A stretch of 64,000 nucleotides of DNA from Pseudomonas sp. M30-35 (GTDB lineage: Bacteria; Pseudomonadota; Gammaproteobacteria; Pseudomonadales; Pseudomonadaceae), in assembly GCF_002163625.1 (NCBI RefSeq), contig NZ_CP020892.1:4526001-4590000 (forward strand), written 5' to 3'. This document shows positions 40,146-54,371 of the stretch, one piece after another. The translations under genes were made by a program, and so were the position numbers. The notes beneath the pieces are model-generated. The model did not search any database. It saw nothing but the letters and a program-made list of their open reading frames with translations, and was not told the origin of the DNA. How positions within the stretch are numbered: position 1 is the first letter of the stretch; every line of letters begins with the position of its first letter.

Positions 40146-41429
40146 TTAGCGGAATGCCAAGTCACGCAAGAACAAGGTGATCGGCGGGAACATGATCAGC
40201 AATACCGACATCAACATAAGAATGGCGAAGAACGGCAGGCTGCCCCGAATTACCTCTAGGTAAGGTCGCCTGAACACGGCGATGGCAGTGAAAATATCGC
40301 AGCCAAACGGTGGTGTTGCCGAACCAATAGCGGCTTGCAAGGTGACGATAGTCCCTACCAGCACCGGGTCGAGACCCGAGATGCGCACCGCCGGGGCAAA
40401 GATTGGTACCAGGATCAGCATGACCACAATCGGGTCAACAAACATGCAGCCGATGAAGAAGGCGACCGAGATAATCACCAGCAACTCTGTCGGTGACGCA
40501 CTCATGATGCCGATGCCGCTGAGGATCTGCTGAGGGATCTGGGCAAACGAGATCACCCAAGAAAACGCCGAGCCAGCCGCCACCAGAATAAATACAACCG
40601 CCGTGATCAAGCCGGTAGACAAGGCGATCGACGATAGCTCACTGAGCTTCACCCGGCGGAAAATCAGCACCTCAAGAATCAGTGCATACAACACTGAAAC
40701 GGCGGCCGCTTCAGTCGGGCTGAACACGCCAGTATAAATACCGCCGATGGTCAGCACCGGCAGCAGCAAAGGCAGTATTGCTCGGCGACAAGTTACCAAA
40801 CGCTGGATCCAGCTGAACTTCTCGCCAGATGGAATACCGGTAATCCGTGCATAGATGTAGCAATAGCCACACAACAACAACATCAGCAGCAAGCCGGGGC
40901 CGATACCTGCGATGAACAACTCGGCGACAGAAGTGCCTGAAACCACACCATAGATGATCATGCCGATGCTAGGCGGAATCAGCAGAGCGATGTCTGAGGC
41001 ATTGATGATCAAGGCCATCGCAAAGCTATCTTTGTAGCCTTGCTGCAACATCTTGGGGCGCATGATGCTGCCAACCCCAACCACTGTCGCCTGAGTTGAA
41101 CCAGACAACGCGCCAAACAGAGCACAACTCAAAGCAGTGGTGACCGCCATGCCGCCGCGCACATGCCCAACAAATGCCATTGCCACATCGAGCAGACGGT
41201 TCGCCGTTGCGCCGCGCGTAATGATGTCTGCCGCCAGGATAAACATCGGCACTGCCACCAATGCGGCTGGACGTATACCGGCAATCATCTGCTGCACGAT
41301 AAACTCTGGGCCCATGGTGAAAAACAAGGTAAAGCCTGCCGCCGAAGCAGCCAGCAAAGTAGTCATCATCGGGAAACCGCAAAGCAGCAACACCAGCATG
41401 ATAATTAACAGCGTGGTCGTCATATCCAT
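40146..41429 (-). CDS. uehC: TRAP transporter large permease (DctM/UehC type), ectoine uptake
   Basis: A 427-residue inner-membrane protein with about 12 hydrophobic helices, the large TRAP permease that couples sodium to solute import. Typical segments are LLIIMLVLLLCGFPMM, GATANRLLDVAMAFVGHVRGGMAVTTALSCALFGALSGSTQATVVGVG, and GCMFVDPIVVMLILVPIFAPAV. The ATG at 41429 was chosen because the family starts at that helix; a longer frame adds an untypical Cys-rich lead. It follows the small permease by 10 bases and lies beside enuR, which assigns it to ectoine. Its binding protein is encoded 5 kb away on the other strand. Confidence 0.88.
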   Translation of the reverse strand: MDMTTTLLIIMLVLLLCGFPMMTTLLAASAAGFTLFFTMGPEFIVQQMIAGIRPAALVAVPMFILAADIITRGATANRLLDVAMAFVGHVRGGMAVTTALSCALFGALSGSTQATVVGVGSIMRPKMLQQGYKDSFAMALIINASDIALLIPPSIGMIIYGVVSGTSVAELFIAGIGPGLLLMLLLCGYCYIYARITGIPSGEKFSWIQRLVTCRRAILPLLLPVLTIGGIYTGVFSPTEAAAVSVLYALILEVLIFRRVKLSELSSIALSTGLITAVVFILVAAGSAFSWVISFAQIPQQILSGIGIMSASPTELLVIISVAFFIGCMFVDPIVVMLILVPIFAPAVRISGLDPVLVGTIVTLQAAIGSATPPFGCDIFTAIAVFRRPYLEVIRGSLPFFAILMLMSVLLIMFPPITLFLRDLAFR

Positions 41430-41439
41430 GGGTGCGGGC

Positions 41440-41976
41440 TCAGTGTTGCGAAGGGACGGTGGCGTCGACGTGCCGCTCTGGAGCCTCACGGCGCCCAAGC
41501 AGAACCTGCAGCTGGACATAAGCGTGGCGTGCAAACTGCAGCCCAGTCATGCCCAACCCCAAAGGAATCACCAGATAAATGTAATGCAGTGGCACCTGTA
41601 GCGCCGATGATGAGCGCCCCACTCGCGCAGCGGATTCGACATAGCCCACCGAGGCCCAGGTCAACCACAGCATTAAGCCAGCGGTGCATGTATTGATGAT
41701 TAACAGGGCTGCTGCGGCAGGTTTGCCGGTGAGTTGCTCAACCAATGCGCTCATGCTGATGTGCCGACTGTGACGCGCGGCATAACTACAACCAACGAAT
41801 GTGACGAAGATGAGCAGAAACTGATTGAGCTCTTCGGAAAAGTAGATGCTCTGGTTGAACACATAACGTCCAATCACGTTACCGACCGAATTCAGCGCCA
41901 TGAGCAAAATGCCGCTCGCGAGGATGAAGGCTTCAAGCTTCTCCAGCATCCAGTCCAACTTGCGCAGCCAAGTCAT
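41440..41976 (-). CDS. uehB: TRAP transporter small permease (DctQ/UehB type), ectoine uptake
   Basis: A 178-residue four-helix protein. The sequence LEKLEAFILASGILLMALNSVGNVIGRYVFNQSIYFSEELNQFLLIFVTFVGCSYAARHSRHI is the DctQ signature. The ATG at 41976 has a GGAGGT ribosome site, which excludes the longer frame. It pairs with UehC. A sigma-70-type promoter and a large palindrome lie 55-135 bases upstream of the start. Confidence 0.88.
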   Translation of the reverse strand: MTWLRKLDWMLEKLEAFILASGILLMALNSVGNVIGRYVFNQSIYFSEELNQFLLIFVTFVGCSYAARHSRHISMSALVEQLTGKPAAAALLIINTCTAGLMLWLTWASVGYVESAARVGRSSSALQVPLHYIYLVIPLGLGMTGLQFARHAYVQLQVLLGRREAPERHVDATVPSQH

Positions 41977-42030
41977 AGCTACCTCCAATCCGGCTCTTGT
42001 GAGCGGACGCTTTCTTGTTGTGGAGGCCAA

Positions 42031-42059
42031 ACCTTATCGCCGACAAAAAACCATGTCAA
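42031..42059 (-). promoter_or_regulatory. Candidate promoter of uehBC
   Basis: On the minus strand TTGACA (42054-42059), 17-base spacer, TAAGGT (42031-42036). A perfect -35 with a fair -10, 55 bases before the uehB start codon. Confidence 0.55.
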
Positions 42060-42070
42060 TTGATTATTTG

Positions 42071-42111
42071 AATCATTACAAATGCCCACAAGTTGGGCGC
42101 TTGTAATGATT
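42071..42111. promoter_or_regulatory. Large interrupted palindrome, candidate EnuR operator
   Basis: AATCATTACAA at 42071-42081 and its exact complement TTGTAATGATT at 42101-42111, with inner GCCCA/TGGGC partly extending the arms to about 18 bases. It lies between enuR and the uehBC promoter, just upstream of the -35. The core TTGTAATG recurs upstream of enuR/doeA (43548), which links both to one regulator. Confidence 0.55.
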
Positions 42112-42121
42112 ATGCTCTGTT

Positions 42122-43522
42122 TTAGAACACAAAATGCATTGGCACCGGAGCCTCAAGCATCAGCCCATTTAAGATGCTCAGCCCCGCCTCAACCCGCGAG
42201 CGGCTCTGTTCGGCGCCCAAACTGAAGCGCACGTGTTGGTTGGTTCGATCAGGAGTCGCTAGGAAGGGTTCTGCCGGAAAGATCATCACCCCTTCCTGGC
42301 GCGCACGACGGGCGAACTTTTCTGGCGACCAATGCCCAGGCAGTTCAGCCCAGATATGCATGCCGTTGGGATCGGCCTTGAACTGACACGCCGTCAAGTG
42401 CTCACGTGCCAGCGCCTGGCGCGCGGCCAACTCCTGCTGCTGGAAGCTCACCATACGGTCGAGGGTGCCGTCCTGCATCCACCAACTGGCAATTTCAAAG
42501 GGCATCAAGGTTGCCATCCAAGTGGTGCTGCGCAACCGACCAATCGCCTGATGCACCATGTTTGGTGGAGTCACCAAGTAGCCGGCACGCATGCCCGGTA
42601 GCGTGATCTTGGTCAGACTGGTCGCATAAAAACTGCGCTCAGGAATGAACGCGGATAACGGCGGATGGCGATCAGGCTGCAGGGCTCCGTAGACATCATC
42701 TTCAACCACAGTGAGGTCGTACTTTCGCGCCAGGTCAGCAATCGCCTGACGCCGTTCAAGGCCCATGGTGTCAGTAGTCGGATTGTTCATCGTTGGCGTA
42801 CAGAACAGCACGCGAGCCCCGCCCTGCTTGCATGCGGCCTCCAGCGCTTCTGGCAATAAGCCCTGATCGTCGATGGCCAGCCCCTTGAGTTTAAAGTGCA
42901 GGGTCTGCGCCAAAGCCATTAACAACATGCCGGTTTCCTGCTCACACAGCACGGTATCACCGGGCTTGAGCACCGTTGCCATGGCAATCGTCAGGGCATG
43001 GGCGGCACCATTGCAAAACAATAGATTGTCGGGATTAGCCGGTAGCTTCTGCTGCGCCAGCCAGGTGCAGACCACCTCGCGGTGCAGGGTCAAACCCTGG
43101 GTGGGATGGAATGAGGTAATGAAGTCGTCCCGCCCCTCACGCGCCAGTCGCTCAAGGCTTTCGCGATAGAGCTTGACGTGACGCGGGGTGCACACCGGAT
43201 GCGCAGTGGACAGATCAATACCGCGGCTAGGGTCTTCGTGCTCGTCAATCGACAGGTAATCGGACTCATGGCTGACATGCCGGCTACGGACAAAGGTGCC
43301 GCTGCCTACCTGGGCATAAATTGCGCCCTGTTTTTCGGCATGGGCATACGCATTGCTTACCGTCTGCACGCTTACACCGAGTGTCTCCGCCAACTCGCGA
43401 TGAGTTGGCAGTTTACTGCCAGGCACCAGCGCACCGGTATTGATTGCCTCTGTCAGCGCATTACCAATAGCTAAGTATTTCGGCAGACCTGTGCGAATAA
43501 ACGGCTTTAGGTCAATTGTCAT
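42122..43522 (-). CDS. enuR: MocR/GntR-type PLP-dependent regulator of ectoine genes
   Basis: A 466-residue MocR protein: N-terminal GntR winged helix (GALVPGSKLPTHRELAETLGVSVQTVSNAYAHAEKQGAI) joined to a fold-type I aminotransferase domain. The PLP lysine is K305 in YATSLTKITLPGMR, close to the K302 described for Ruegeria EnuR. EnuR is known as a repressor of ectoine uptake and catabolic genes that responds to acetyl-diaminobutyrate and diaminobutyrate bound to PLP. Its position between the TRAP permeases and doeA supports the assignment. Repeated AGGTCAAT motifs surround its start codon, suggesting autoregulation. Confidence 0.88.
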   Translation of the reverse strand: MTIDLKPFIRTGLPKYLAIGNALTEAINTGALVPGSKLPTHRELAETLGVSVQTVSNAYAHAEKQGAIYAQVGSGTFVRSRHVSHESDYLSIDEHEDPSRGIDLSTAHPVCTPRHVKLYRESLERLAREGRDDFITSFHPTQGLTLHREVVCTWLAQQKLPANPDNLLFCNGAAHALTIAMATVLKPGDTVLCEQETGMLLMALAQTLHFKLKGLAIDDQGLLPEALEAACKQGGARVLFCTPTMNNPTTDTMGLERRQAIADLARKYDLTVVEDDVYGALQPDRHPPLSAFIPERSFYATSLTKITLPGMRAGYLVTPPNMVHQAIGRLRSTTWMATLMPFEIASWWMQDGTLDRMVSFQQQELAARQALAREHLTACQFKADPNGMHIWAELPGHWSPEKFARRARQEGVMIFPAEPFLATPDRTNQHVRFSLGAEQSRSRVEAGLSILNGLMLEAPVPMHFVF

Positions 43523-43796
43523 AGGTCAATAAATTCCTTGACGATAATTGTAATGGTCATGATATTGAGTCTTTAAAGGTATTGACCTGCATTCTTCACG
43601 ATCACTTTAGCAGGCTTCAGTACAATTTCTCCACTGAGTGCTCATCCGTATAAAAACAATTGAGCACGCCGCGGGGGGCTCCATCGAATGATTCTCAGCG
43701 GTTTATCGATGGCGCGCAGCACAGGTGTTCGTCAGGCACTGCCAACGAACTGATTGAATTCTGAACGTTTTATACGTTCGTTATCGAGATGCTGTC
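43523..43796. promoter_or_regulatory. enuR-doeA divergent control region
   Basis: Holds AGGTCAATA at 43523-43531 with a first AGGTCAAT at 43509 inside enuR, the inverted partner TATTGACCT at 43580-43588, TTGTAATGGTCAT at 43548-43560 (shared with the palindrome near uehB), a hairpin GTGCTCA/TGAGCAC at 43638-43667 and GAACG-N7-CGTTC at 43763-43779. These are candidate EnuR or global-regulator sites for divergent transcription. Confidence 0.45.
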
Positions 43797-44984
43797 ATGA
43801 GTGAAATTGCGTTGAGTTTCAGCCGTGCAGAGTACGCCCAGCGTCTGGCCAAGGTGCGCGCCGCCATGGTCGCAAAAGGGATCAATACTCTAATTGTTCA
43901 CGATCCATCAAACATGTCTTGGCTGACAGGCTATGACGGCTGGTCGTTTTACACCCCGCAGTGTGTGGTGGTTGGCGAGCACGGCGAGCCGTTGTGGTTC
44001 GGCCGCGGCATTGACGCCAACGGCGCTCGACGCACAGTTTATCTGGCTGAAGAGAACATCACGTCATACAGCGACAACTATGTGATGAATCCGCCGCATC
44101 ACGCCCTCGATTATCTGTGCGAGCAAGTCCTGCCCGCTCGCGGTTGGACCTCAGGCGTAATCGGCGTCGAGATGGACAACTATTACTACAGCGCCACCTC
44201 TCATCAGGCGCTACAGCGAGGTTTGGCAAAGGCGCAGTTGGTCGACAGCACAGGCCTGGTCAACTGGTGCCGGGCGATCAAGTCCGATCAAGAAATCGAA
44301 TACATGAGCGTGGCCGCACGGATTGTTGAAAACATGCACCGTGCCATTCTCGAGATGATCGAACCCGGCTTACCCAAAAACATTCTAGTGGCTGAAATCT
44401 ATCGCGTTGCCTGCACCGGCCACGACGGTAAATTCGGCGACTATCCAGCAATAGTGCCGATGCTGCCATCAGGCAAAGATGCCTCAGCGCCGCATCTGAC
44501 GTGGGACGACCGCCCGTTTGTAAAAGGCGAAGGCACATTCTTTGAGATTGCCGGTTGCCACAGGCGCTACCACTGCCCCTTGTCACGCACGGTTTATCTG
44601 GGCGAGCCATCGGCAGCATTTCGCAAGGCTGAAGAAGCCATTAACGCCGGGCTGGAAGCGGGCCTGGCGATGGCTAAACCCGGCAATACCTGCGGTGATA
44701 TAGCCCGCGAATTAAATAGCACGCTGCGCCGCTACGGTTATGACCGTGGTGACAATCGCTGTGGCTACCCAATCGGTCTGAGCTACCCGCCAGACTGGGG
44801 CGAGCGAACCATGAGCTTGCGTGAAAGTGACACCACAGTGTTGCAACCAGGCATGACCTTTCACTTTATGCCCGGCCTGTGGCTGGACGACTGGGGCCTG
44901 GAAACCACCGAAAGCATTCTGATTAGCGAAACAGGTGCTGACACCTTTTGCGATTATTCGCGCCAACTGTTTGTGAAGCCCTAA
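43797..44984 (+). CDS. doeA: Ectoine hydrolase DoeA (EutD), M24-fold
   Basis: A 395-residue protein of the M24 aminopeptidase-P/creatinase fold that opens the ectoine ring to N-acetyl-diaminobutyrate. It has the creatinase-type N-domain (LIVHDPSNMSWLTGYDGWSFYTPQ) and a pita-bread C-domain. The metal ligands of true M24 peptidases are mostly replaced: the region normally D...D reads FFEIAG then RYHCPLSRT, the usual His-containing motif is CGYPIGLSYPP and the usual Glu motif is FHFMPG. This fits the metal-free mechanism reported for EutD. It is one base from doeB. Confidence 0.92.
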   Translation: MSEIALSFSRAEYAQRLAKVRAAMVAKGINTLIVHDPSNMSWLTGYDGWSFYTPQCVVVGEHGEPLWFGRGIDANGARRTVYLAEENITSYSDNYVMNPPHHALDYLCEQVLPARGWTSGVIGVEMDNYYYSATSHQALQRGLAKAQLVDSTGLVNWCRAIKSDQEIEYMSVAARIVENMHRAILEMIEPGLPKNILVAEIYRVACTGHDGKFGDYPAIVPMLPSGKDASAPHLTWDDRPFVKGEGTFFEIAGCHRRYHCPLSRTVYLGEPSAAFRKAEEAINAGLEAGLAMAKPGNTCGDIARELNSTLRRYGYDRGDNRCGYPIGLSYPPDWGERTMSLRESDTTVLQPGMTFHFMPGLWLDDWGLETTESILISETGADTFCDYSRQLFVKP

Positions 44985-44985
44985 C

Positions 44986-46053
44986 ATGAGTATTGCAGCA
45001 ATGAACATTTCAGCTGATGCCGAGCAGCGGTCTGTCAGCGGTGCAGGACAGGTCGCGGCAAGCACCATCAGCGCGACCGTAGATTTTGATCGTGACGGCG
45101 TACAGCACGGCTATCTCAAGCTGCCCTACTCCCATGATTTGTCGGCGTGGGGCTGCATCATGATCCCAATCACCGTGGTGAAAAATGGTGACGGTCCGAC
45201 CGCGCTGATGACCGGTGGTAACCACGGTGATGAATATGAGGGCATCACCGCCTTACTCAAGCTGGCCAGCGAGTTGCGTGCTGATGAGGTTAAAGGTCGG
45301 GTGATCATCGTTCCGGCGATGAACTACCCAGCCGTACAAAGCGCTAGTCGTACCTCGCCGATCGACAAAGGCAATATGAATCGTGCGTTTCCCGGTAATC
45401 CCCACGGCAGCATGACGGAGCGGATTGCTGACTATTTTCAACGCACGCTAATACCGCTCTGCGACTACGCGCTGGATATCCACTCCGGCGGCAAGACGCT
45501 CGATATTCTGCCGTTCTCGGCAGCCCATCGCCTGCAAGATCCGCAGCAAGAGGCCAAATGTATTGAAGGGGCTAAAGTCTTCGGTACAGCGGCCAGCATG
45601 ATCTTGTTTGAGCTTGATGCCGCCTCGTTGTACGACACCGCGGTCGAGTCGCAGGGCAAGGTATTCGTCACCACGGAATTGGGTGGCGGCGGCACCAGCA
45701 CGCCAAAAACCATGGCACTGGCGGACCGTGGCGTACGTAATTTCCTCAAATTCGCAGGCATCACCGAAGGCCAGTTCGAGCCTGCGGACGAACCGCTGAT
45801 GTTATTGGATATGCCCGATGCAAGCTGCTACGTACAGAGTCTGCATCGCGGCATTCTCGAACTTAATTTAAGCATTGGCGATCGGGTTAAAAACGGTGAT
45901 TTGATCGCTCGCGTACACAGTTTTGAACGCACCGGTACTCCAGCAGTTGAATACCGCGCCGAGCGTGATGGCTTGCTCGTTGCAAGACGCTTTCCAGCGT
46001 TGGTCGACATAGGCGATACCCTCGCAGTAATAGCCGACATAGTGGATAACTGA
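44986..46053 (+). CDS. doeB: N-acetyl-diaminobutyrate deacetylase DoeB (EutE)
   Basis: A 355-residue zinc deacetylase of the AstE/AspA branch of M14. The zinc site is readable in MTGGNHGDEYEG (H and E) and LDIHSGG (second His). The catalytic-region Glu lies in FVTTELGGGGTSTPK. A biotinyl-lipoyl-like C-terminal strand domain (LHRGILELNLSIGDRVKNGDLIARVH) is usual for this subgroup. It removes acetate from N-acetyl-diaminobutyrate to give 2,4-diaminobutyrate, and works with DoeA as a complex. Downstream is the TRAP binding protein. Confidence 0.92.
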   Translation: MSIAAMNISADAEQRSVSGAGQVAASTISATVDFDRDGVQHGYLKLPYSHDLSAWGCIMIPITVVKNGDGPTALMTGGNHGDEYEGITALLKLASELRADEVKGRVIIVPAMNYPAVQSASRTSPIDKGNMNRAFPGNPHGSMTERIADYFQRTLIPLCDYALDIHSGGKTLDILPFSAAHRLQDPQQEAKCIEGAKVFGTAASMILFELDAASLYDTAVESQGKVFVTTELGGGGTSTPKTMALADRGVRNFLKFAGITEGQFEPADEPLMLLDMPDASCYVQSLHRGILELNLSIGDRVKNGDLIARVHSFERTGTPAVEYRAERDGLLVARRFPALVDIGDTLAVIADIVDN

Positions 46054-46092
46054 CACAACCCTGCACACAAAAAAATAAATGGAGAACTAACC

Positions 46093-47118
46093 ATGAGAAA
46101 TTTCAGCACACTGAAGAAAGTAGCCTTAGCTACTGCAATGGGCTTAGTTTTAGCGGGTCAGGCAGCGGCAGAAGAATGGAAATTCGCACTCGAAGAAATC
46201 AGTGGCAGCGTGCAAGACGCTTATGCGCAAAAATTCAAACAACTGGTTGAAGAAAAAAGCGACGGCAAAATCACCGTCACGGTTTATCCCTACGGCTCAC
46301 TGGGCGAATCGGAAGACCTGACCGAACTGGTTGCCAACGGCGTCCTTCAATTCACCCACGGCTCAACCGGAATTCTAGGTTCGACCGCTCCATCAATGCA
46401 GGTGTTCTCTGTGCCTTACCTGTTGTCACAAGACAACAAGGTAAATCTCAAGGTACTCACCGAAAGCCCAACCATCTACGGGCCAATGGCTGACAAGCTG
46501 AAGACTCGCAACCTACGTCTTCTGAGCATGTACCCGGAAGGTGAAATGGTCTGGACGACCAACAAGGAAATCCACAAGCCTGCGGATTTCGAAAACGTAA
46601 AAATGCGCGTCATGGCCTCACCTATGCTGGTTGAAGCCTACAAAGCCTTCGGCGCAGTGCCTACACCACTGCCTTACTCCGAAGTCTATGGTGCACTGCA
46701 ACTGAAGATGGTCGACGGTCAGGAAAACCCGATCTTTGCCATCGAAGAGATGAAATTCTACGAGGTCAACGACGTACTGACCTGGTCCGGCCAACAGCAA
46801 TTCACGGTCGCCGTATTATCGGGTGAATCGTGGTATCAGGGCCTGCCTGCTGACGAGCAGAAGATTATCGATGAAACCATAACCGAGCTCGGCCCGTACA
46901 TCTTCGATAAGCAAGAGGAATACAGCAAAACCCGCTTGGAAAAAATCAAAAAGGCCAAGCCGGATATCAAAATCGTACACCTGACTCCAGCCGAGAAAGA
47001 TGTCTTCCGCAAAGCCAGCCTGCCACTGCGTGAAAAACTGGTCGAACTGGCCGGCCCAGATGCCGGTGCAGCGCTTAAAGCGCTGGAAAAAGAAATTGCT
47101 GACTTAGAAAAACAGTAA
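46093..47118 (+). CDS. uehA: TRAP substrate-binding protein (DctP/UehA type) for ectoines
   Basis: A 341-residue periplasmic binding protein with a clear signal peptide (LKKVALATAMGLVLAGQAAA) and the DctP fold. The mature start EEWKFALEEISGSVQDAYAQKF carries the acidic residue used by ectoine-binding TRAP proteins. NVKMRVMASPMLVEAYKAFGAVPTPLPYSEVYGALQLKMVDGQENP is the typical TRAP signature region. It sits inside the catabolic operon while its membrane partners uehB and uehC are on the opposite strand beyond enuR. A strong stem-loop follows, common after highly expressed binding-protein genes. Confidence 0.9.
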   Translation: MRNFSTLKKVALATAMGLVLAGQAAAEEWKFALEEISGSVQDAYAQKFKQLVEEKSDGKITVTVYPYGSLGESEDLTELVANGVLQFTHGSTGILGSTAPSMQVFSVPYLLSQDNKVNLKVLTESPTIYGPMADKLKTRNLRLLSMYPEGEMVWTTNKEIHKPADFENVKMRVMASPMLVEAYKAFGAVPTPLPYSEVYGALQLKMVDGQENPIFAIEEMKFYEVNDVLTWSGQQQFTVAVLSGESWYQGLPADEQKIIDETITELGPYIFDKQEEYSKTRLEKIKKAKPDIKIVHLTPAEKDVFRKASLPLREKLVELAGPDAGAALKALEKEIADLEKQ

Positions 47119-47131
47119 GCACAAGCCCTCA

Positions 47132-47163
47132 AGGGAGCCCCTGAAAAGCATCAGGAGCTCCCT
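47132..47163 (+). terminator. Stem-loop after uehA
   Basis: Arms AGGGAGCCCCTGA and TCAGGAGCTCCCT pair at 12 of 13 positions around a 6-base loop, 14 bases after the stop. There is no T tract, so it is more likely an mRNA-stabilising hairpin or partial terminator. Confidence 0.55.
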
Positions 47164-47230
47164 CGCTGGCAAGACCTCTCGCCAGCTTTGTTACATCAGG
47201 TGCGCAGGTGCTCTGCGCCGGAGCAGAAGT

Positions 47231-47707
47231 ATGCGTCTGGACAGTTACGACCTGAAGATTCTGCAAATCCTGCAGAACAATGGCCGCATCACCAAATCCA
47301 GTTTGGCCGAAGCGATCAACCTGTCGATAAGCCCTTGCTGGGAACGGGTTAAGCGCCTTGAAGAAGCAGGGATTATTCGTGGCTATGGCGCCCAACTAAA
47401 CCCCGAAGTGTTGATCAAGCGAGCTCCGGTTATGGTTGAAATCAGCCTCAAACAACACAACCGCGAAGCCTTCCAACGTTTTGAGCGCGCCATCAACGAA
47501 TGCGCTGAAGTCACCGAATGCTACGCCACCGGCGGCGGTATCGACTACATCATCAAAGTCATGGCCCGCGATATCGACCAATACCAGCGCCTGATCGACC
47601 GCTGGTTAATGGCCGACCTCGGTATTGAACGCTACTTCACCTACATAGTGACCAAAACCATCAAACACTGCGAAACACCACTGGAAATCAACGACGACCT
47701 TGCCTGA
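47231..47707 (+). CDS. doeX: Lrp/AsnC-type regulator DoeX
   Basis: A 158-residue feast-famine regulator. HTH: LDSYDLKILQILQNNGRITKSSLAEAINLSISPCWERVKRLEEAGIIRGYGAQLN; RAM ligand domain follows (VMVEISLKQHNREAFQRFERAINECAEVTECYATGGGIDYIIKVMA). In ectoine catabolic clusters an AsnC member (DoeX/AsnC) is standard and acts as activator. Located between uehA and doeC. Ligand is probably a pathway diaminobutyrate derivative. Confidence 0.9.
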   Translation: MRLDSYDLKILQILQNNGRITKSSLAEAINLSISPCWERVKRLEEAGIIRGYGAQLNPEVLIKRAPVMVEISLKQHNREAFQRFERAINECAEVTECYATGGGIDYIIKVMARDIDQYQRLIDRWLMADLGIERYFTYIVTKTIKHCETPLEINDDLA

Positions 47708-47893
47708 AACGCTGGCCACAATCGTCGCGCTGAGCCAGCCCAAAAAAACACCACCTTAAGTGCCTGCAAAACAAAAAAACCTCGGATAGAACCCGCACGA
47801 AGAGAAAAAAACGACAGCCAATCCCTCTTAAAGTGGAAGCCATGATTAGCACCATGCTCGCTGCAATGCGAGCCAGTAGAGAGGATGCACTGC

Positions 47894-49366
47894 ATGCACA
47901 ATTTCGAAGATCCACGCTTGATACGCCAGCTGGCTTATATCAATGGCAAATGGACCGCAGGCAGCTCCGGTCGCGATGAAGCGGTGATCAACCCCGCGAC
48001 CGAAGAAATCATTGGCCGTTGCACTCAGCTCGATGAACCGCAAGTGGTACAAGCCATTGAGGCAGCCTCATCAGCGTTTCCTGCTTGGCGTGCATTGTCA
48101 CTTGAAGCTCGTGGTGAAATCCTCAAGAAATGGCACGACCTGTTGCTCGCGCACAAACAAGACCTGGCCCGACTCATGACCCTGGAGCAAGGTAAGCCAC
48201 TGTTTGAAGCGTTGGGCGAGATTGACTATGCAGCCTCGTTTATCACCTGGTTCGCAGAAGAGGCACGCCGCAGTTATGGCGAAACAATTCCGAGCCATAT
48301 CAGCAATGCGCAACTCGGCAGCGTCCGCGAACCTATTGGCGTTGCGGCACTGATTACGCCGTGGAACTTCCCCTGCGCGATGATCACTCGCAAAGCTGCA
48401 GCGGCATTGGCCGCTGGCTGCACCGTAGTGATTAAGCCCGCAGGGGAAACACCCTTTTCGGCACTGGCCTTGGCCGAACTGGCTGAGCGTGCGGGTTTCC
48501 CGGCGGGTGTATTCAACGTCATCGTCGGTGAGCCTGAGATGATTTCGCGGGTGCTCTGTGCCAGCGACAAGGTTAAGGCCTTGTCATTCACCGGCTCGAC
48601 CCGCGTTGGCCGCTTACTGCTCGAACAATCAGCGGCGACGGTGAAAAAGTGCTCAATGGAGCTAGGTGGTAACGCACCCTTTATCGTCTTGCCCGACATG
48701 GATGTGGAGCAGGCTGCGCAGGCGGCTATCGATGCAAAGTTCCAGACCACTGGCCAGGATTGTCTCGCCGCTAACCGGATTTTCGTTCACCGCTCACTGT
48801 ACCAGCCATTCCTTGAAAGCTTCGCCCGGCGCATGGGCGAACTGACGCTGGGTAACGGCCTGGTTCGGGGCGTCAATCAAGGTCCGCTGATCAACCAAAA
48901 AGCCGTCAGCAAAGCTCAAGAGCTGGTCGACGATGCCGTGGCCAAAGGCGCACGCCTGCTGATGGGCGAGCAAGACCAGGCACCGGGCCGCAACTTCTTT
49001 GTACCCACCCTGCTGGCTGACGTAACCGCTGAAATGCGTGTGTACCGCGAAGAGAATTTTGCGCCGATTGCAGGCGTGCTGCCGTGGGACGACCTGGAGC
49101 AAGTGATTAGCCAGGCCAACGACACCGAATACGGCCTCGCGGCCTATGTGTACGGCTATGACATCCGCCAGATCTGGCAACTGCTGCGCGGTTTGGAATT
49201 CGGCATGGTCAGCGTCAATTCGGTGAAGATGACCGGACCACCGGTGCCATTCGGCGGCGTTAAACAGTCAGGTCTAGGCCGTGAAGGCTCAAGCCATGGC
49301 CTCGATGAGTACACCCAAATCAAATACTACTGCCTGGGTAATTTGCCCAGTGTCAGCGGCTGTTAA
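47894..49366 (+). CDS. doeC: Aldehyde dehydrogenase DoeC (aspartate-semialdehyde oxidation)
   Basis: A 490-residue NAD(P)-dependent aldehyde dehydrogenase close to the succinate-semialdehyde class (GabD-like). Markers are TPWNFPCAMITRKAAAALAAGCTVVIKPA, SFTGSTRVGRLLLEQSA, MELGGNAPFIV with the general-base Glu, and TTGQDCLAANRIFVH with the catalytic Cys. The start at 47894 is preceded by GAGAGG at a good distance; an ATG at 47885 touches that site directly and is less likely. In ectoine breakdown it oxidises aspartate semialdehyde to aspartate. Confidence 0.88.
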   Translation: MHNFEDPRLIRQLAYINGKWTAGSSGRDEAVINPATEEIIGRCTQLDEPQVVQAIEAASSAFPAWRALSLEARGEILKKWHDLLLAHKQDLARLMTLEQGKPLFEALGEIDYAASFITWFAEEARRSYGETIPSHISNAQLGSVREPIGVAALITPWNFPCAMITRKAAAALAAGCTVVIKPAGETPFSALALAELAERAGFPAGVFNVIVGEPEMISRVLCASDKVKALSFTGSTRVGRLLLEQSAATVKKCSMELGGNAPFIVLPDMDVEQAAQAAIDAKFQTTGQDCLAANRIFVHRSLYQPFLESFARRMGELTLGNGLVRGVNQGPLINQKAVSKAQELVDDAVAKGARLLMGEQDQAPGRNFFVPTLLADVTAEMRVYREENFAPIAGVLPWDDLEQVISQANDTEYGLAAYVYGYDIRQIWQLLRGLEFGMVSVNSVKMTGPPVPFGGVKQSGLGREGSSHGLDEYTQIKYYCLGNLPSVSGC

Positions 49367-49413
49367 TTGCGTTGAGTCACTTGAACGCCAACCTATCAAC
49401 CAAGGACATAATC

Positions 49414-50820
49414 ATGACCCTCGACACCCAGAAAATCATCGAGATTGATCGCCAGAACGTCTTCCACGCCTCGACTCACCTCAAGCAACATGCCCATGGC
49501 GAAAGCCCGGCGCGCATCATCACCGGCGCCCAAGGCATTCGTATTCAGGACTCGCTTGGCAACGAATTTATCGACGGTTTTGCCGGTCTGTATTGCGTCA
49601 ACATTGGCTACGGCCGCACTGAAATGGCCGAAGCCATTTATGAGCAGGCCAAGCAATTGGCGTATTACCACACCTACGTTGGCCACACGACCGAAGGCAT
49701 GGCGCAACTGTCAGAACGCATCGTCAAACTCGCCGGTCAAGGCATGAGCAAAGTCTATTACGGCATGTCCGGCTCGGATGCCAACGAAACCCAGCTCAAA
49801 CTGGTTTGGTACTACAACAATATCCTCGGCCGTAAGGACAAAAAGAAAGTTATCTCGCGTGATCGTGGCTATCACGGCTCAAGCATCGCCTCCGGTTCGA
49901 TGACCGGCCTGCCGGTATTCCACGCACACTTCGACCTGCCACTTGAGCGGATCAAGCACACAGTCGCGCCGGTTTACTATCGCCGCGAAGATGACGCAAT
50001 GAGCGAGCAGGAATTCTCGGTTTACTGCGCGCAAAAACTTGAAGAAATGATCCTCGCTGAAGGCCCCGATACAGTCGCCGCAATGATCGGTGAACCGGTG
50101 CTTGGCACCGGCGGTATCGTGCCACCGCCAAAAGGCTACTGGACTGAAATCCGCAAGGTGCTGGATAAGTACGACATCCTGCTGATCGCCGACGAAGTGG
50201 TCTGTGGCTTTGGCCGTTTGGGTGTGGATTTCGGCTCGCAGTACTACGAAATGAAACCAGATCTGATCACCGTAGCCAAAGGCTTGACCTCGGCCTACCA
50301 GCCACTTTCCGGCGTAATCGTTGGTGAGCGCGTCTGGCAAGTGCTTGAACAAGGCACCGACACCTACGGCGCAATCGGCCATGGTTACACCTACTCCGGT
50401 CACCCAATGGGGATCGCCTCGGCAATCGCCAACCTGAACATTATCGACCGTGAAAACCTCACCGGTAATGCCCGCGATACCGGTGCTTATTTGCAACAAC
50501 GGATGCAGCAAACCTTCGGCGATCATCCGTTGGTCGGTGAGACGCGGGGCATTGGCCTGCTGGCTGCGCTGGAGTTCTCCAGCGACCGCAGCAAGCGTCA
50601 GCATTTCGACCCGAACCTGAAAGTCGGTGCGCAGATTTCTGCAGCCTGTCTGGAAGAAGGCTTGATCGCCCGCGCCATGCCGCACGGTGACATTCTAGGT
50701 TTTGCGCCACCCCTGATTGTCAGCCGTGACGAAGTGGATGACATCGTCGCTCGCGCAGAACGCGCAGTGAACAAAGTCACCGACAAGTTGATCAGCAGCG
50801 GTGCCTGGCAAGCCAAGTAA
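49414..50820 (+). CDS. doeD: Diaminobutyrate transaminase DoeD (class III aminotransferase)
   Basis: A 468-residue class III aminotransferase. HASTHLKQHAHGESPARIITGAQG opens the family fold, MSGSDANETQLKLVWYYNN holds the phosphate region, DEVVCGFGRLG the PLP-contact Asp, and K289 in TVAKGLTSAYQPLSG is the PLP lysine. The ATG at 49414 with AAGGAC upstream was chosen over a TTG at 49372. It would transfer the gamma-amino group of diaminobutyrate to give aspartate semialdehyde for DoeC. Confidence 0.88.
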   Translation: MTLDTQKIIEIDRQNVFHASTHLKQHAHGESPARIITGAQGIRIQDSLGNEFIDGFAGLYCVNIGYGRTEMAEAIYEQAKQLAYYHTYVGHTTEGMAQLSERIVKLAGQGMSKVYYGMSGSDANETQLKLVWYYNNILGRKDKKKVISRDRGYHGSSIASGSMTGLPVFHAHFDLPLERIKHTVAPVYYRREDDAMSEQEFSVYCAQKLEEMILAEGPDTVAAMIGEPVLGTGGIVPPPKGYWTEIRKVLDKYDILLIADEVVCGFGRLGVDFGSQYYEMKPDLITVAKGLTSAYQPLSGVIVGERVWQVLEQGTDTYGAIGHGYTYSGHPMGIASAIANLNIIDRENLTGNARDTGAYLQQRMQQTFGDHPLVGETRGIGLLAALEFSSDRSKRQHFDPNLKVGAQISAACLEEGLIARAMPHGDILGFAPPLIVSRDEVDDIVARAERAVNKVTDKLISSGAWQAK

Positions 50821-50837
50821 CACCCGCCAGCTAACCC

Positions 50838-50866
50838 GGCCGGACGCCTTCAGCCTCCGGCCTTTT
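50838..50866 (+). terminator. Intercistronic terminator-like hairpin between doeD and eutB
   Basis: GGCCGGA-N11-TCCGGCC followed by TTTTAATT, 18 bases after doeD. The weak T tract suggests partial termination that could lower expression of the eutBCA part. Confidence 0.6.
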
Positions 50867-50888
50867 AATTGTTGGGACGGGAAATAAC

Positions 50889-51884
50889 ATGCACACCGAA
50901 CTAACCCTGAAAGACATTTATCTCGCGCAGCAACGAATTGCCGGGCTGGCTGAACGCACACCTTTGCTGCGCAGCGAATCGCTTTCTCGGCGCTGGGACT
51001 GCGATGTCTGGCTCAAACTCGACAACCTACAACCCACCGGCGCGTTCAAGCTGCGCGGTGCAGTCAACGCACTGCTCGGCCTGGATGACGCCCAACGTGA
51101 GCGCGGTGTGGTGACCATGTCGACCGGCAACTTTGGTCGCGCCTTAGCTTACGCCGGGAAGCATCTGGCGATTGCCGTAACGGTATGCATCTCCAAGCTG
51201 GTGCCGGACAACAAGGTTGCCGCCTTACGCGAAAGTGGCGCACAGGTGGTGATTGTCGGTGACACCCAAGATGATGCAGACATCGAAGCGCGGCGCCTGC
51301 AACAAGAACAAGGCCTGGCCTACATTTCCCCGTTTGATGACCCATTAGTGATCGCCGGCCAAGGTACTTGCGGGCTAGAGATCATGGAACAACAACCGCA
51401 GATTGATACGGTCTTTGCTGGGCTTTCGGGCGGCGGCTTGATCGCCGGAATTGGCTTGGCGGTCAAGTCCATCAATCCCAACGCCGAGGTGATTGGCGTG
51501 AGCATGAATCAAGGCGCAGCAATGCTTGAGAGCCTGGCCGCTGGCAAGCCGGTGCAAGTTCAGGAAGTCGCCTCGCTGGCAGACAGTCTGGGCGGCGGCA
51601 TCGGTCTTGAAAATGCGTGGACCTTCGCCATGACCCAGCGCTATATGGACCGTGGTTTTCGGGTCGACGAAGAGCAAATTGCTCGCGCCATGTTGCATCT
51701 GTTCAACCATCAACGCTTGGTGGTTGAAGGTGCAGCGGCGGTTGGCATCGCGGCAGTTGAACAGCACCAAATAAACCTGCGCGGTCGGCAGGTGGCGCTG
51801 GTGATCAGCGGCCAGAATCTATCCAACAACACCTTTGCCCAAGCCTGCCAACTGGCTGGAGAGGCCAACTATGCACATCTATAA
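50889..51884 (+). CDS. eutB: Threonine-dehydratase-like PLP enzyme EutB
   Basis: A 331-residue fold-type II PLP enzyme of the serine/threonine dehydratase family. LAERTPLLRSESLSRRWDCDVWLKLDNLQPTGAFKLRGA carries the PLP lysine K54; MSTGNFGRALAYAGKHLAI is the phosphate-side loop and GLSGGGLIAGIGL the Gly-rich PLP loop. No ACT domain, so it is a short catabolic type. In ectoine clusters EutB is thought to process hydroxy-diaminobutyrate from 5-hydroxyectoine; this step is less firmly established. eutC begins inside its 3' end. Confidence 0.88.
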   Translation: MHTELTLKDIYLAQQRIAGLAERTPLLRSESLSRRWDCDVWLKLDNLQPTGAFKLRGAVNALLGLDDAQRERGVVTMSTGNFGRALAYAGKHLAIAVTVCISKLVPDNKVAALRESGAQVVIVGDTQDDADIEARRLQQEQGLAYISPFDDPLVIAGQGTCGLEIMEQQPQIDTVFAGLSGGGLIAGIGLAVKSINPNAEVIGVSMNQGAAMLESLAAGKPVQVQEVASLADSLGGGIGLENAWTFAMTQRYMDRGFRVDEEQIARAMLHLFNHQRLVVEGAAAVGIAAVEQHQINLRGRQVALVISGQNLSNNTFAQACQLAGEANYAHL

Positions 51885-52815
51885 CCGTGAGCAGATTAGC
51901 GCGGTGGTCAAGCTCGACCCAGCCGCACTGGAGGTCGTGGAAGCAGGCTTTGCTGCGCTTGGCCGTGGCGAAGTTGAAATGCCACCGATACTCAGCATGA
52001 ATATTGCCGAAAGCAACGGCGAGGTAGACGTCAAAACCGCGCATATTCGCGGTTGGCCACGCTTCGCGATCAAGATCAGCCCCGGCTTTTTCGACAACCC
52101 GGCCCTCGGCCTGCCCAGCCTCAACGGCTTGATGCTGCTGTTCTCAGCCAAGACCGGGCTGGTCGATGCGGTACTGTTTGACGAAGGCTACCTGACCGAT
52201 ATTCGCACCGCTCTGGCCGGCGCGATTGCCGCTAAGCATTTGTCACGCAGCAATTCACAACGGGTTGCGGTAATCGGCGCGGGCCTACAGGCCGAACTGC
52301 AAGTCGCGGCTCTGCAACTGGTGCGTGATATCCGCGAGGTCCATGTCTACACCCGTGACCGCAGCAAGGCGCAAGCGTATGCGGCGCATATGCAGGAGCA
52401 ATACGCTCTCAGTGTGAGCATCCATGACAGCGCTGCCAGTGCCTGCGCACAGGCTGACATCGTGGTAACAACCACGCCAGCGCGGGAGCCAGTTTTGAAC
52501 TGGGCTGATCTGCCCAAAGGTGTTCACGTCACAGCCATGGGCTCGGACAATCCGCATAAAAATGAATTGCACCCGACCATTCTGGCCAGCGCCGATGTGT
52601 TGGTGGTTGACCGTCTCAGCCAGTCTCGCGCGCTCGGCGAACTGCATCACGCGCCTGCATTGCAACGCGAAGTATTCGAACTCGGCAGTTTGATCAGCCA
52701 GCAGCAAAAAGCACGCAGCAGTGACCAACAAATCACAGTGTGCGACCTGACCGGCACCGGCGTGCAAGATACGGCCATCGCCAACTATGCAGCACGCCTG
52801 CTCGAAGGTGCTTGA
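51871..52815 (+). CDS. eutC: Ornithine-cyclodeaminase-family protein EutC
   Basis: A 314-residue member of the ornithine cyclodeaminase/mu-crystallin family. SRSNSQRVAVIGAGLQAELQVAALQLVRDIREVHVYTRD is the Rossmann dinucleotide site; the N-terminal KTAHIRGWPRFAIKISPGFFDNP is the substrate domain. The ATG at 51871, with GGAGAGG upstream, overlaps eutB by 14 bases. Family members act as NAD-linked imine reductases or cyclodeaminases. Together with EutB and EutA it is assigned to the hydroxyectoine branch by context. Confidence 0.87.
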   Translation: MHIYNREQISAVVKLDPAALEVVEAGFAALGRGEVEMPPILSMNIAESNGEVDVKTAHIRGWPRFAIKISPGFFDNPALGLPSLNGLMLLFSAKTGLVDAVLFDEGYLTDIRTALAGAIAAKHLSRSNSQRVAVIGAGLQAELQVAALQLVRDIREVHVYTRDRSKAQAYAAHMQEQYALSVSIHDSAASACAQADIVVTTTPAREPVLNWADLPKGVHVTAMGSDNPHKNELHPTILASADVLVVDRLSQSRALGELHHAPALQREVFELGSLISQQQKARSSDQQITVCDLTGTGVQDTAIANYAARLLEGA

Positions 52816-52816
52816 A

Positions 52817-53632
52817 ATGATCGAAACCTTCGCCGAGTTTCAAGCGCTGCAACAACGCTTCGAGCATCAGAGTTCGAGTGATAATGGCTGCGTATGCATT
52901 GGCCTGGTGCAACTGGCCAGCGATTTCACTCTGGAGAATGAATGGCGCCAGTTGCTCGGCGAACGTGTTGAGCTGTACAGCACGCGCACCCCCTGCAGCC
53001 CGACGGTTACCCCAGAAGGCTTGCGTAAAATGGCGCAGAGTTTGACGCAGTCCAGCACCTTGCTGGTACCGGGAATGCCACTCGATGTAATCGCGTTCGG
53101 TTGCACCTCGGGCAGCATACTGATTGGCGAGCAGGAGGTCAGTCGGCTGATTAATGAGGCTCACCCGGGCATACCGGTGACCAATCCGTGGAGCGCGGTT
53201 AAAGCCGCACTGCGTGAACTGAACGCAAAGAAAGTGGCGGTACTCACGCCCTACATTGGCGAGGTCAATTACCCGATATACCTCGGTTTGCAACAAGCGG
53301 GGTTGGAGATCAGCGCATTCGGCACCTTTGCCGTGCTCGATGACGCCTTGATCCCACGGATTCCAGCAGATGCCATTGCCCACGCCGCCGAGCAGCTGTT
53401 GCTAGGCAGCAAAGCAGATGCATTGTTCTTGTCATGCACCAACCTGCGCACCCTTGAGCTGCTTGATGAGCTGGAGCGACGTTTAGGTTTACCGGTTATT
53501 TCCAGCAACCAGGCATTGCTGTGGCACGCACTGCAACTGACCGACTGCATCCACCGCCCGCAAAACTTTGGCAGCCTGCTTCGTCAACAGACATTGCCTA
53601 CGCACTCACCTGAGCAGCAACGCGAAGCTTAG
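52817..53632 (+). CDS. eutA: Asp/Glu racemase/maleate isomerase-family protein EutA
   Basis: A 271-residue protein of the Asp/Glu racemase superfamily, the EutA (arylmalonate decarboxylase-like) type. Both putative catalytic Cys are present: VIAFGCTSGSILIGEQEV in the first half and ALFLSCTNLRTLELLDELE in the second. True arylmalonate decarboxylases keep only the second, so racemase, isomerase or maleate-isomerase-like chemistry is more likely. It starts two bases after eutC. The EutA reaction in hydroxyectoine use is not settled, to my knowledge; it may correct a stereocentre. Confidence 0.85.
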   Translation: MIETFAEFQALQQRFEHQSSSDNGCVCIGLVQLASDFTLENEWRQLLGERVELYSTRTPCSPTVTPEGLRKMAQSLTQSSTLLVPGMPLDVIAFGCTSGSILIGEQEVSRLINEAHPGIPVTNPWSAVKAALRELNAKKVAVLTPYIGEVNYPIYLGLQQAGLEISAFGTFAVLDDALIPRIPADAIAHAAEQLLLGSKADALFLSCTNLRTLELLDELERRLGLPVISSNQALLWHALQLTDCIHRPQNFGSLLRQQTLPTHSPEQQREA

Positions 53633-53750
53633 CGCTGAAAGCACCTGAAGATAGGCCGACCATCACCAATGGCGAACACCAGGTGAGCGGCCGATGGTGC
53701 ATCCTGAGCTGAAAATGTAGCATTGGCGCAGAGTCATCATGGAGACGCAC

Positions 53751-54371
53751 ATGGAGCTTGCGACGTTAGCGTTATTCCTGCCCGCGTGCTTTGCACTGAA
53801 TATGGCACCTGGGCCTAACAATCTGCTCTCTATCAGCAACGCCACCCGATATGGATTCCGCTCATCCTGTATGGCGGGTGCCGGTCGTCTGCTTGCCTTC
53901 GCGATCATGATTGCACTGGCGTCAGCAGGCTTGGCTGTCGTGCTACAAACGTCAGAACTGGTCTTCTATGGGATCAAGATAGTTGGCGCTGGCTACCTAT
54001 TCTACTTGGCATACCAGCTATGGGGCGCTGCCGCGAAAGCCGAGGCTGAGCCAGCAAGCACCCACGTGGGTTTATGGACTCTGGCACGACAAGAGTTCCT
54101 CGTCGCGGCAGGTAACCCCAAAGCCATTCTGATATTTACCGCATTCCTACCGCAGTTTATTGATCCGACTGCAGACATTGGCGCTCAATTTACGGTGCTT
54201 GGGTTATGTTTCCTGGCATTGGAATGGATTGCTATCGGGATCTACGCATACATTGGATTGCATATGCGCCGCTGGTTTGCCCAGCCTCGAGGTCAGAGGA
54301 TTTTCAATCGATGCTGTGCCGGATTATTGTCCGCTGCCGCCTCGCTGCTATTGATGGCTCGCCGAGCCTGA
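53751..54371 (+). CDS. LysE/RhtB-family amino-acid exporter
   Basis: A 206-residue inner-membrane exporter with about six helices. FLPACFALNMAPGPNNLLSISNATRYGFRSSCMAGAGRLLAF is the LysE signature; GNPKAILIFTAFLPQFIDPTA is the second conserved region. The ATG at 53751 with GGAG upstream was chosen over 53739. It is 118 bases after eutA on the same strand, so may be co-transcribed and export excess amino-acid intermediates, or may be an independent gene. Confidence 0.88.
   Translation: MELATLALFLPACFALNMAPGPNNLLSISNATRYGFRSSCMAGAGRLLAFAIMIALASAGLAVVLQTSELVFYGIKIVGAGYLFYLAYQLWGAAAKAEAEPASTHVGLWTLARQEFLVAAGNPKAILIFTAFLPQFIDPTADIGAQFTVLGLCFLALEWIAIGIYAYIGLHMRRWFAQPRGQRIFNRCCAGLLSAAASLLLMARRA

Follow-up and report, generated by a model that had tools for sequence, protein, structure and literature searches.

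Does the twelve-gene cluster at positions 40146-53632 of a 64,000-nucleotide stretch of Pseudomonas sp. M30-35 DNA take up and break down ectoines, and where would that ectoine come from? The stretch (the window) covers positions 4,526,001-4,590,000 of the genome, which is one contig of 4,926,954 bases (4.93 Mb). The original prediction, made from the sequence letters, described the cluster as an uptake and breakdown pathway for ectoine and hydroxyectoine, which are salt protectants produced by other microbes; its gene list and coordinates were right, and all twelve frames are open. Our analysis supports that pathway, with corrections given below. The cluster is very probably a substrate-induced system that scavenges ectoine, and probably 5-hydroxyectoine too, as a source of carbon and nitrogen. 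This reading is based on family models over their cut-offs, matches to solved structures, a gene order kept among related loci, a candidate operator seen in 17 of 17 loci (13 Pseudomonas, this one included, and four presumed Vibrio), the lack of any match over cut-off to ectoine synthesis genes, a DoeA clade with 99/99 support, and the published growth phenotypes of Vibrio diabolicus and Vibrio natriegens.

Open reading frame inspection of the window placed the 12 genes in two divergent units: enuR-uehQ-uehM on the minus strand and doeA-doeB-uehP-doeX-doeC-doeD-eutB-eutC-eutA on the plus strand. The transporter genes encode a tripartite ATP-independent periplasmic (TRAP) system. The features are as follows, with family scores in bits.

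40146..41534, minus strand: uehM, TRAP large permease (DctM family); TIGR00786 348, cut-off 268; PF06808 from residue 43.
41440..42030, minus strand: uehQ, TRAP small permease (DctQ family); Pfam PF04290, 92.
42122..43522, minus strand: enuR, MocR/GabR-type repressor; NF052286 (EnuR/EhuR) 586, cut-off 480.
43515..43530, no strand assigned: candidate EnuR operator, ATTGTN6ACAAT with one mismatch, spanning the enuR start codon.
43538..43566, plus strand: weak sigma-70-like promoter of the doeA unit, TTGACG-17-GATATT, from a consensus scan.
43797..44984, plus strand: doeA/eutD, ectoine hydrolase; TIGR02993 626, cut-off 613.
44986..46053, plus strand: doeB/eutE, N-alpha-acetyl-diaminobutyrate deacetylase; TIGR02994 480.5, cut-off 402.7.
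46093..47118, plus strand: uehP, TRAP solute-binding protein; PF03480; TIGR00787 (DctP) 180, cut-off 175.
47231..47707, plus strand: doeX/asnC, Lrp/AsnC regulator; general Lrp/AsnC matches, none over cut-off.
47885..49366, plus strand: doeC/ssd, aldehyde dehydrogenase, presumed aspartate-semialdehyde dehydrogenase; TIGR01780 605, cut-off 646; synteny.
49372..50820, plus strand: doeD/atf, aminotransferase, presumed diaminobutyrate transaminase; NF005684 819, cut-off 687; synteny.
50889..51884, plus strand: eutB, hydroxyectoine utilisation dehydratase; NF005680 461, above its cut-off of 413; TIGR02991 389, below its cut-off of 413.
51835..52815, plus strand: eutC, ornithine-cyclodeaminase-family protein; NF006141 474, above its cut-off of 408; TIGR02992 408, below its cut-off of 472.
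52787..53632, plus strand: eutA, divergent Asp/Glu-racemase-superfamily protein; TIGR02990 180, below its cut-off of 318; PF17645.

The listed starts of uehM, uehQ, and eutC are the first possible codons, with overlaps of 95 nucleotides between uehM and uehQ and 50 nucleotides between eutC and eutB. The true starts of these three genes (uehM is listed with TTG) probably lie downstream. The binding-protein gene uehP is separated from its permease genes uehQM and sits within the doe unit.

EnuR, DoeA, DoeB, and DoeD scored over curated NCBIfam cut-offs, and EutB and EutC each scored over one of two ectoine-related models. The prediction had named, among the findings that would speak against it, closer matches of DoeA to creatinases and of DoeB to succinylglutamate desuccinylases. 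DoeA belongs to the ectoine hydrolase family and not to the creatinase/prolidase family, based on TIGR02993 and on scores against solved structures: ectoine hydrolases 6twk and 6twj matched at 598 and 597 bits and creatinase 1chm at 65 bits, so a creatinase identity was rejected. The doeB gene adjoins doeA (doeA ends at 44984 and doeB starts at 44986). Names in the PDB do not separate DoeB from succinylglutamate desuccinylase, because structures 6twm (DoeB) and 3na6, deposited as "succinylglutamate desuccinylase/aspartoacylase," score alike (406 and 405 bits). The NCBIfam models do separate them, as the ectoine DoeB model TIGR02994 is the sole NCBIfam family matched, and on this basis we rejected the desuccinylase identity. 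The best family for DoeC was TIGR01780, a succinate-semialdehyde dehydrogenase family, and NF005684, the family matched by DoeD, carries the description "hypothetical protein." In Halomonas elongata, deletions and heterologous doeA expression are reported to place these enzymes in a route from ectoine through N-alpha-acetyl-diaminobutyrate, diaminobutyrate, and aspartate semialdehyde to aspartate (PMC3187862).

The prediction took the eutABC set as a pointer to 5-hydroxyectoine use; the role of EutABC in hydroxyectoine use is a published proposal, described in a 2018 review as not biochemically evaluated (PMC5924519, section 8.4). Deletion of eutB or eutC in H. elongata reportedly left growth on ectoine unimpaired (PMC3187862), which fits a role of EutB and EutC limited to hydroxyectoine. 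Among solved structures, EutA came closest to a maleate isomerase and to arylmalonate decarboxylases (56-66 bits). Its Cys106 was present in all 13 Pseudomonas loci and Cys217 in 12 of them, the frame in the remaining locus (L120) exceeding the fetched stretch. We take these residues to be the two cysteines of the Asp/Glu racemase superfamily.

The predicted absence of ectABC and ectD was borne out by profile searches of the whole genome. EctC and EctD had no match, the best EctA match reached 21 bits against a cut-off of 120.6, and the best EctB match reached 359 bits against a cut-off of 552.2, with no positive control for EctB. The negatives for EctA, EctC, and EctD are informative because the same models scored over cut-off in two genomes of the same genus (G081 and G380). 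With nothing over cut-off, both orphan and complete ect genes in this genome were rejected. The EctB-model match is a diaminobutyrate-transaminase-like gene outside the window (G000:C1:2451358-2452626, minus strand); it probably encodes a diaminobutyrate transaminase of another pathway, and our guess is that this is perhaps a siderophore pathway. The statement in the prediction that ectoine would not serve as the host's own protectant is an inference; imported ectoine may protect it for a time. The cluster would mark the genome as an ectoine consumer that depends on other producers, a point of relevance to the natural turnover of osmolytes.

We surveyed 398 genomes of the same genus with the DoeB profile, and 72 had a match over cut-off: 62 at 573-600 bits and 10, including this one, at 478-485 bits. 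Carrying doeB without ect genes is the rule in this genus, as only 2 of the 72 carriers (G142 and G204) also matched the EctC model, neither of them among the 10 low-scoring, TRAP-type genomes. Separately, two genomes of the genus (G362 and G376) gave strong EctC matches (180 and 178 bits) with no EctA or EctD match, a pattern that agrees with the orphan ectC genes on record (PMC5924519).

The nine other genomes of the low-scoring group, all of which were fetched, had the same 12 genes in the same order. So did P. segetis (L003) and two more named Pseudomonas (L004 and L005), which came from the best 80 of 592 loci in a scan of named genomes. The full set in this order was therefore seen in 12 other Pseudomonas loci; three of the four presumed Vibrio loci also had it, and the fourth lacked eutA. 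In all 17 loci, uehP lay within the doe unit. Identity to the 12 other Pseudomonas loci was 82-95% for UehM and 82-92% for DoeX. The doeX-doeC spacing is 1.6-2.5 kb in three of these loci (L117, L118, and L120), longer than in the others. From the high-scoring group, 3 of the 62 genomes were fetched at length (L126-L128); they had a different gene order and no TRAP match, and a family scan of L128 found EhuABCD.

In a DoeA tree of 44 rows (the window and 43 picked loci), the 13 TRAP-type Pseudomonas made up a single clade (99/99); the larger group around it included Aeromonadaceae, presumed Vibrio, and Oceanospirillaceae. Nine Ehu-type Pseudomonas formed a separate clade (100/98) beside Paraburkholderia and Denitromonas. 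These two clades agree with the report that Pseudomonas acquired the ectoine region twice (PMC13188858). The same report, published in April 2026, describes the identical 12-gene layout for V. diabolicus and nine Pseudomonas species and Ehu-type clusters for most other Pseudomonas, so the cluster was already known in this genus. The system is thus ordinary, and its occurrence in Pseudomonas, which the prediction had put forward as the main accessory feature of the window, is not new.

EnuR Lys305, in the motif ..SLTK.., was invariant in the 13 Pseudomonas loci and is likely the lysine that binds pyridoxal 5'-phosphate (PLP); we likened it by motif, not by alignment, to Lys302 of Ruegeria pomeroyi EnuR, which is reported to lie in TTFTK (PMC8739950). 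The same source gives ATTGTN6ACAAT as the EnuR operator consensus. The first base of our candidate lies 23 nucleotides ahead of the TTGACG hexamer on the doeA side. A site over the enuR start codon was found in every locus: 8 of the 13 Pseudomonas loci match the consensus exactly and the other 5 deviate at one base, and all four presumed Vibrio loci match exactly, for a total of 17 of 17 with at most one mismatch. At two mismatches, the consensus occurred 23 times in the window against 22.3 expected, which is not significant, and the weight of the candidate operator rests on its position and its conservation among loci that are related to one another. Part of that conservation may be coding, because the half beside enuR encodes Met-Thr-Ile; the other half is non-coding for EnuR. 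As uehQM lie behind enuR, one operator could control both the permease unit and the catabolic unit. In R. pomeroyi, enuR is reported to have its own promoter, unresponsive to ectoine (PMC5924519).

Outside this cluster type, a Leisingera locus (L208) had a one-mismatch site at the expected enuR start and an exact site behind enuR. The Ehu-type loci L126-L128 had a one-mismatch site elsewhere, about 100 nucleotides before the enuR match, and no EnuR site within one mismatch was found in L193-L195 or L201. Promoter-like sequences of the TTGACG-17-GATATT kind occurred twice in the region, against 8.2 expected in shuffles; the TTGACG hexamer itself was present in all 13 Pseudomonas loci.

The enuR-doeA gap holds two further features. 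A second block at 43581-43626 (ATTGACCTG ... GTACAAT) was conserved, in slightly varied form, across the 13 Pseudomonas loci. An inverted repeat, GAACG..CGTTC, at 43763-43779, about 33 nucleotides upstream of doeA, is a weak candidate DoeX site. It ranked first among the repeats in 9 of the 13 Pseudomonas loci and was visible in L120; it was not found in L003, L005, or L119, nor was it visible in any of the four presumed Vibrio loci. A perfect repeat of this size also arose in 1239 of 3400 shuffled upstream stretches, and with this figure and the patchy conservation we do not claim it as a DoeX site.

Several results weigh against the scavenging reading. EutA, DoeC, and DoeX passed no specific NCBIfam cut-off and were named by synteny and superfamily, and EutB and EutC each fell below one of their two ectoine models. 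A tree built from 45 selected binding proteins, in which 4pfi and a relative of UehP (L205) sit on long branches and 4pfi has an odd composition, places the binding protein UehP outside the UehA/TeaA clade, from which a branch with 99/98 support separates it. UehP, the "UehA" of the prediction, is therefore not the orthologue of Ruegeria UehA. The alignment further indicated that three of four aromatic cage residues are lacking: at the positions of F66, W167, W188, and F209, which we take to be the TeaA cage, UehP has I94, Y195, A216, and F237, a change from F-W-(W/F) to I-Y-A at the first three. Finally, two relatives of UehP, L205 (49% identity, 12 kb seen on each side) and L192 (58% identity, about 9 kb on each side), are encoded beside TRAP permeases, and no doe genes were found in the stretches around them; L205 adjoins an agmatinase gene.

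The results on UehP and its relatives speak for a first alternative, in which ectoine is still the substrate of the enzymes but the main cargo of UehP-UehQM is some other solute, ectoine entering through a general osmolyte transporter encoded elsewhere. So do the structure scores, as 4pfi matched UehP as well as UehA did (255.0 bits against 254.6 for 3fxb; TeaA 3gyy and 2vpn reached 254.0 and 247.7 bits). We nevertheless consider this alternative unlikely. The uehP gene is inside the doe unit in all 17 loci, and uehQM lie behind enuR. UehP has also kept Glu35, Arg172, and Asn212, along with Phe237; Glu35 and Asn212 are presumably anchors of the ectoine-binding pocket. In binding proteins of the UehA/TeaA type, an arginine holds the ectoine carboxylate (PMC6344544). 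Growth data from Vibrio point the same way. V. diabolicus, with this layout, is reported to grow on ectoine and to need eutD, and V. natriegens, with eutDE-asnC-ssd-atf only, is reported not to grow on it (PMC13188858). The V. diabolicus mutant described there is a eutD mutant, and V. natriegens lacks eutBCA and enuR as well as the transporter genes.

UehP thus most likely serves ectoine uptake through a pocket unlike the two solved ones, with the ligand suggested by gene context. The same pocket letters were found in all 13 Pseudomonas and all four presumed Vibrio loci. Separation of uehP from uehQM is not in itself tied to an altered pocket: three genomes from another class (L193-L195) also have the two apart in a doe cluster, yet their pocket positions read H-W-F-Y and the tree groups the protein with the UehA/TeaA side. 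One tentative explanation, to which we give somewhat less than an even chance, is that the UehP of the 12-gene clusters is a member of another TRAP binding-protein clade working with an ectoine-type permease, with a pocket that retains the charged anchors but not most of the aromatic cage, and that it represents either a second structural solution to ectoine or hydroxyectoine capture or a wider solute range; an ectoine cluster of greater age may have received it by exchange. A plasmid search with UehP returned 24 records, all below 60% identity. A region at about 7.7-16.3 kb in L206 (a Photobacterium sp. TY1-4 plasmid) encodes a related TRAP system beside an Asp/Glu racemase, an M20 aminoacylase, an Lrp regulator, a Xaa-Pro peptidase-family protein, and a diaminopropionate ammonia-lyase; L207 had matches similar to this set. 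By its gene content, the L206 region looks like another breakdown cluster made of cousins of ectoine parts.

A second alternative, that the cluster serves mainly osmoprotection, with ectoine imported as a protectant and degraded only once salt stress ends, has a precedent in the related TRAP system TeaABC, which is described as primarily osmoprotective in Halomonas (PMC5924519). We regard it as very improbable: the permease genes share a unit with enuR and the binding-protein gene shares one with doeAB, an arrangement that should switch on import and degradation at the same time, and the EnuR inducer is reported to be an ectoine breakdown product (PMC8739950). That the cluster is a decayed or partial island without function, as several family scores under cut-off might suggest, is barely credible given 12 open frames and the same genes in the same order in 13 Pseudomonas loci, which lie at several places in the chromosome.

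In the scavenging pathway that we propose, UehP would capture the solute in the periplasm and UehQM would import it. DoeA would open the ring to give N-alpha-acetyl-diaminobutyrate, DoeB would take off the acetate, and DoeD and DoeC would convert diaminobutyrate by way of aspartate semialdehyde to aspartate, steps worked out in Halomonas and assigned here by homology and synteny. EutB, EutC, and EutA would remove the hydroxyl group in the hydroxyectoine branch, following the published proposal. EnuR is predicted to repress at the operator over its own start codon, next to the divergent doeA promoter, until an intermediate from basal DoeA activity reacts with its PLP, by analogy with R. pomeroyi. 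A single operator could in this way govern the permease and catabolic units alike, and DoeX is probably an activator.

No difference in gene content or order was found between the V. diabolicus 12-gene type and the cluster described here; in both, uehP is in the doe unit and uehQM are behind enuR. V. diabolicus also makes ectoine, whereas the present genome has no ect match over cut-off. The Ehu-type Pseudomonas clusters share EnuR, EutB, EutC, DoeA, DoeB, DoeC, DoeD, and usually DoeX; they differ in having the ABC transporter EhuABCD in place of TRAP (by family scan of L128), another gene order, no eutA match, and a DoeA of the other clade. One-operon TRAP-type ectoine systems, with contiguous uehABC, have the same functions, TRAP uptake, and EnuR, whereas in the present cluster uehP stands apart from uehQM, a usp gene is absent, and the eut genes run eutBCA. 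The doeABXCD genes of H. elongata, with eutBC, encode the same breakdown route and likewise have doeX between doeB and doeC, but that cluster has no transporter and no eutA, and H. elongata makes ectoine. Two details of the present cluster are not found in the main text of the V. diabolicus paper, where the words "operator," "pocket," and "aromatic" do not appear (PMC13188858): the operator over the enuR start codon, and a UehP outside the UehA/TeaA clade that lacks most of the cage. The points of interest are accordingly how UehP would recognise ectoine when most of the known aromatic cage is missing, and the possible control of both divergent units by one operator at the enuR start.

The block keeps its genes while its chromosomal place changes. 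In the window and in P. segetis, coaD and ggt precede it and an rhtB-type gene follows; mutM comes next in the window, and the P. segetis stretch ends before that point. In 3.8-kb stretches at mutM from 18 other genomes of the genus, four had no cluster and a ggt gene some 25-540 bases away from mutM, 10 had coaD near mutM, and four had neither. Eight relatives (L004, L117-L120, and L122-L124) share another upstream flank, which by eye is the pst-phoU side of the pho region; gene names in this and the other relatives' flanks were likewise assigned by eye. Upstream flanks differ in L005, L121, and L125; on the downstream side, L005 and L121 look like the group with L004 and L117. A foreign base composition that would point to recent transfer was considered and rejected, as the guanine-plus-cytosine fraction per kb in the cluster (0.50-0.58) did not stand out from that in the examined flanks (0.53-0.62).

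The rhtB-type gene just downstream of eutA (53739-54371) encodes an RhtB/LysE-type exporter. It had no match in the other TRAP-type Pseudomonas stretches, that of L120 ending at eutA, apart from P. segetis, where it is 90% identical. A relative with 51% identity lies convergent to eutA in one presumed Vibrio locus (L237).

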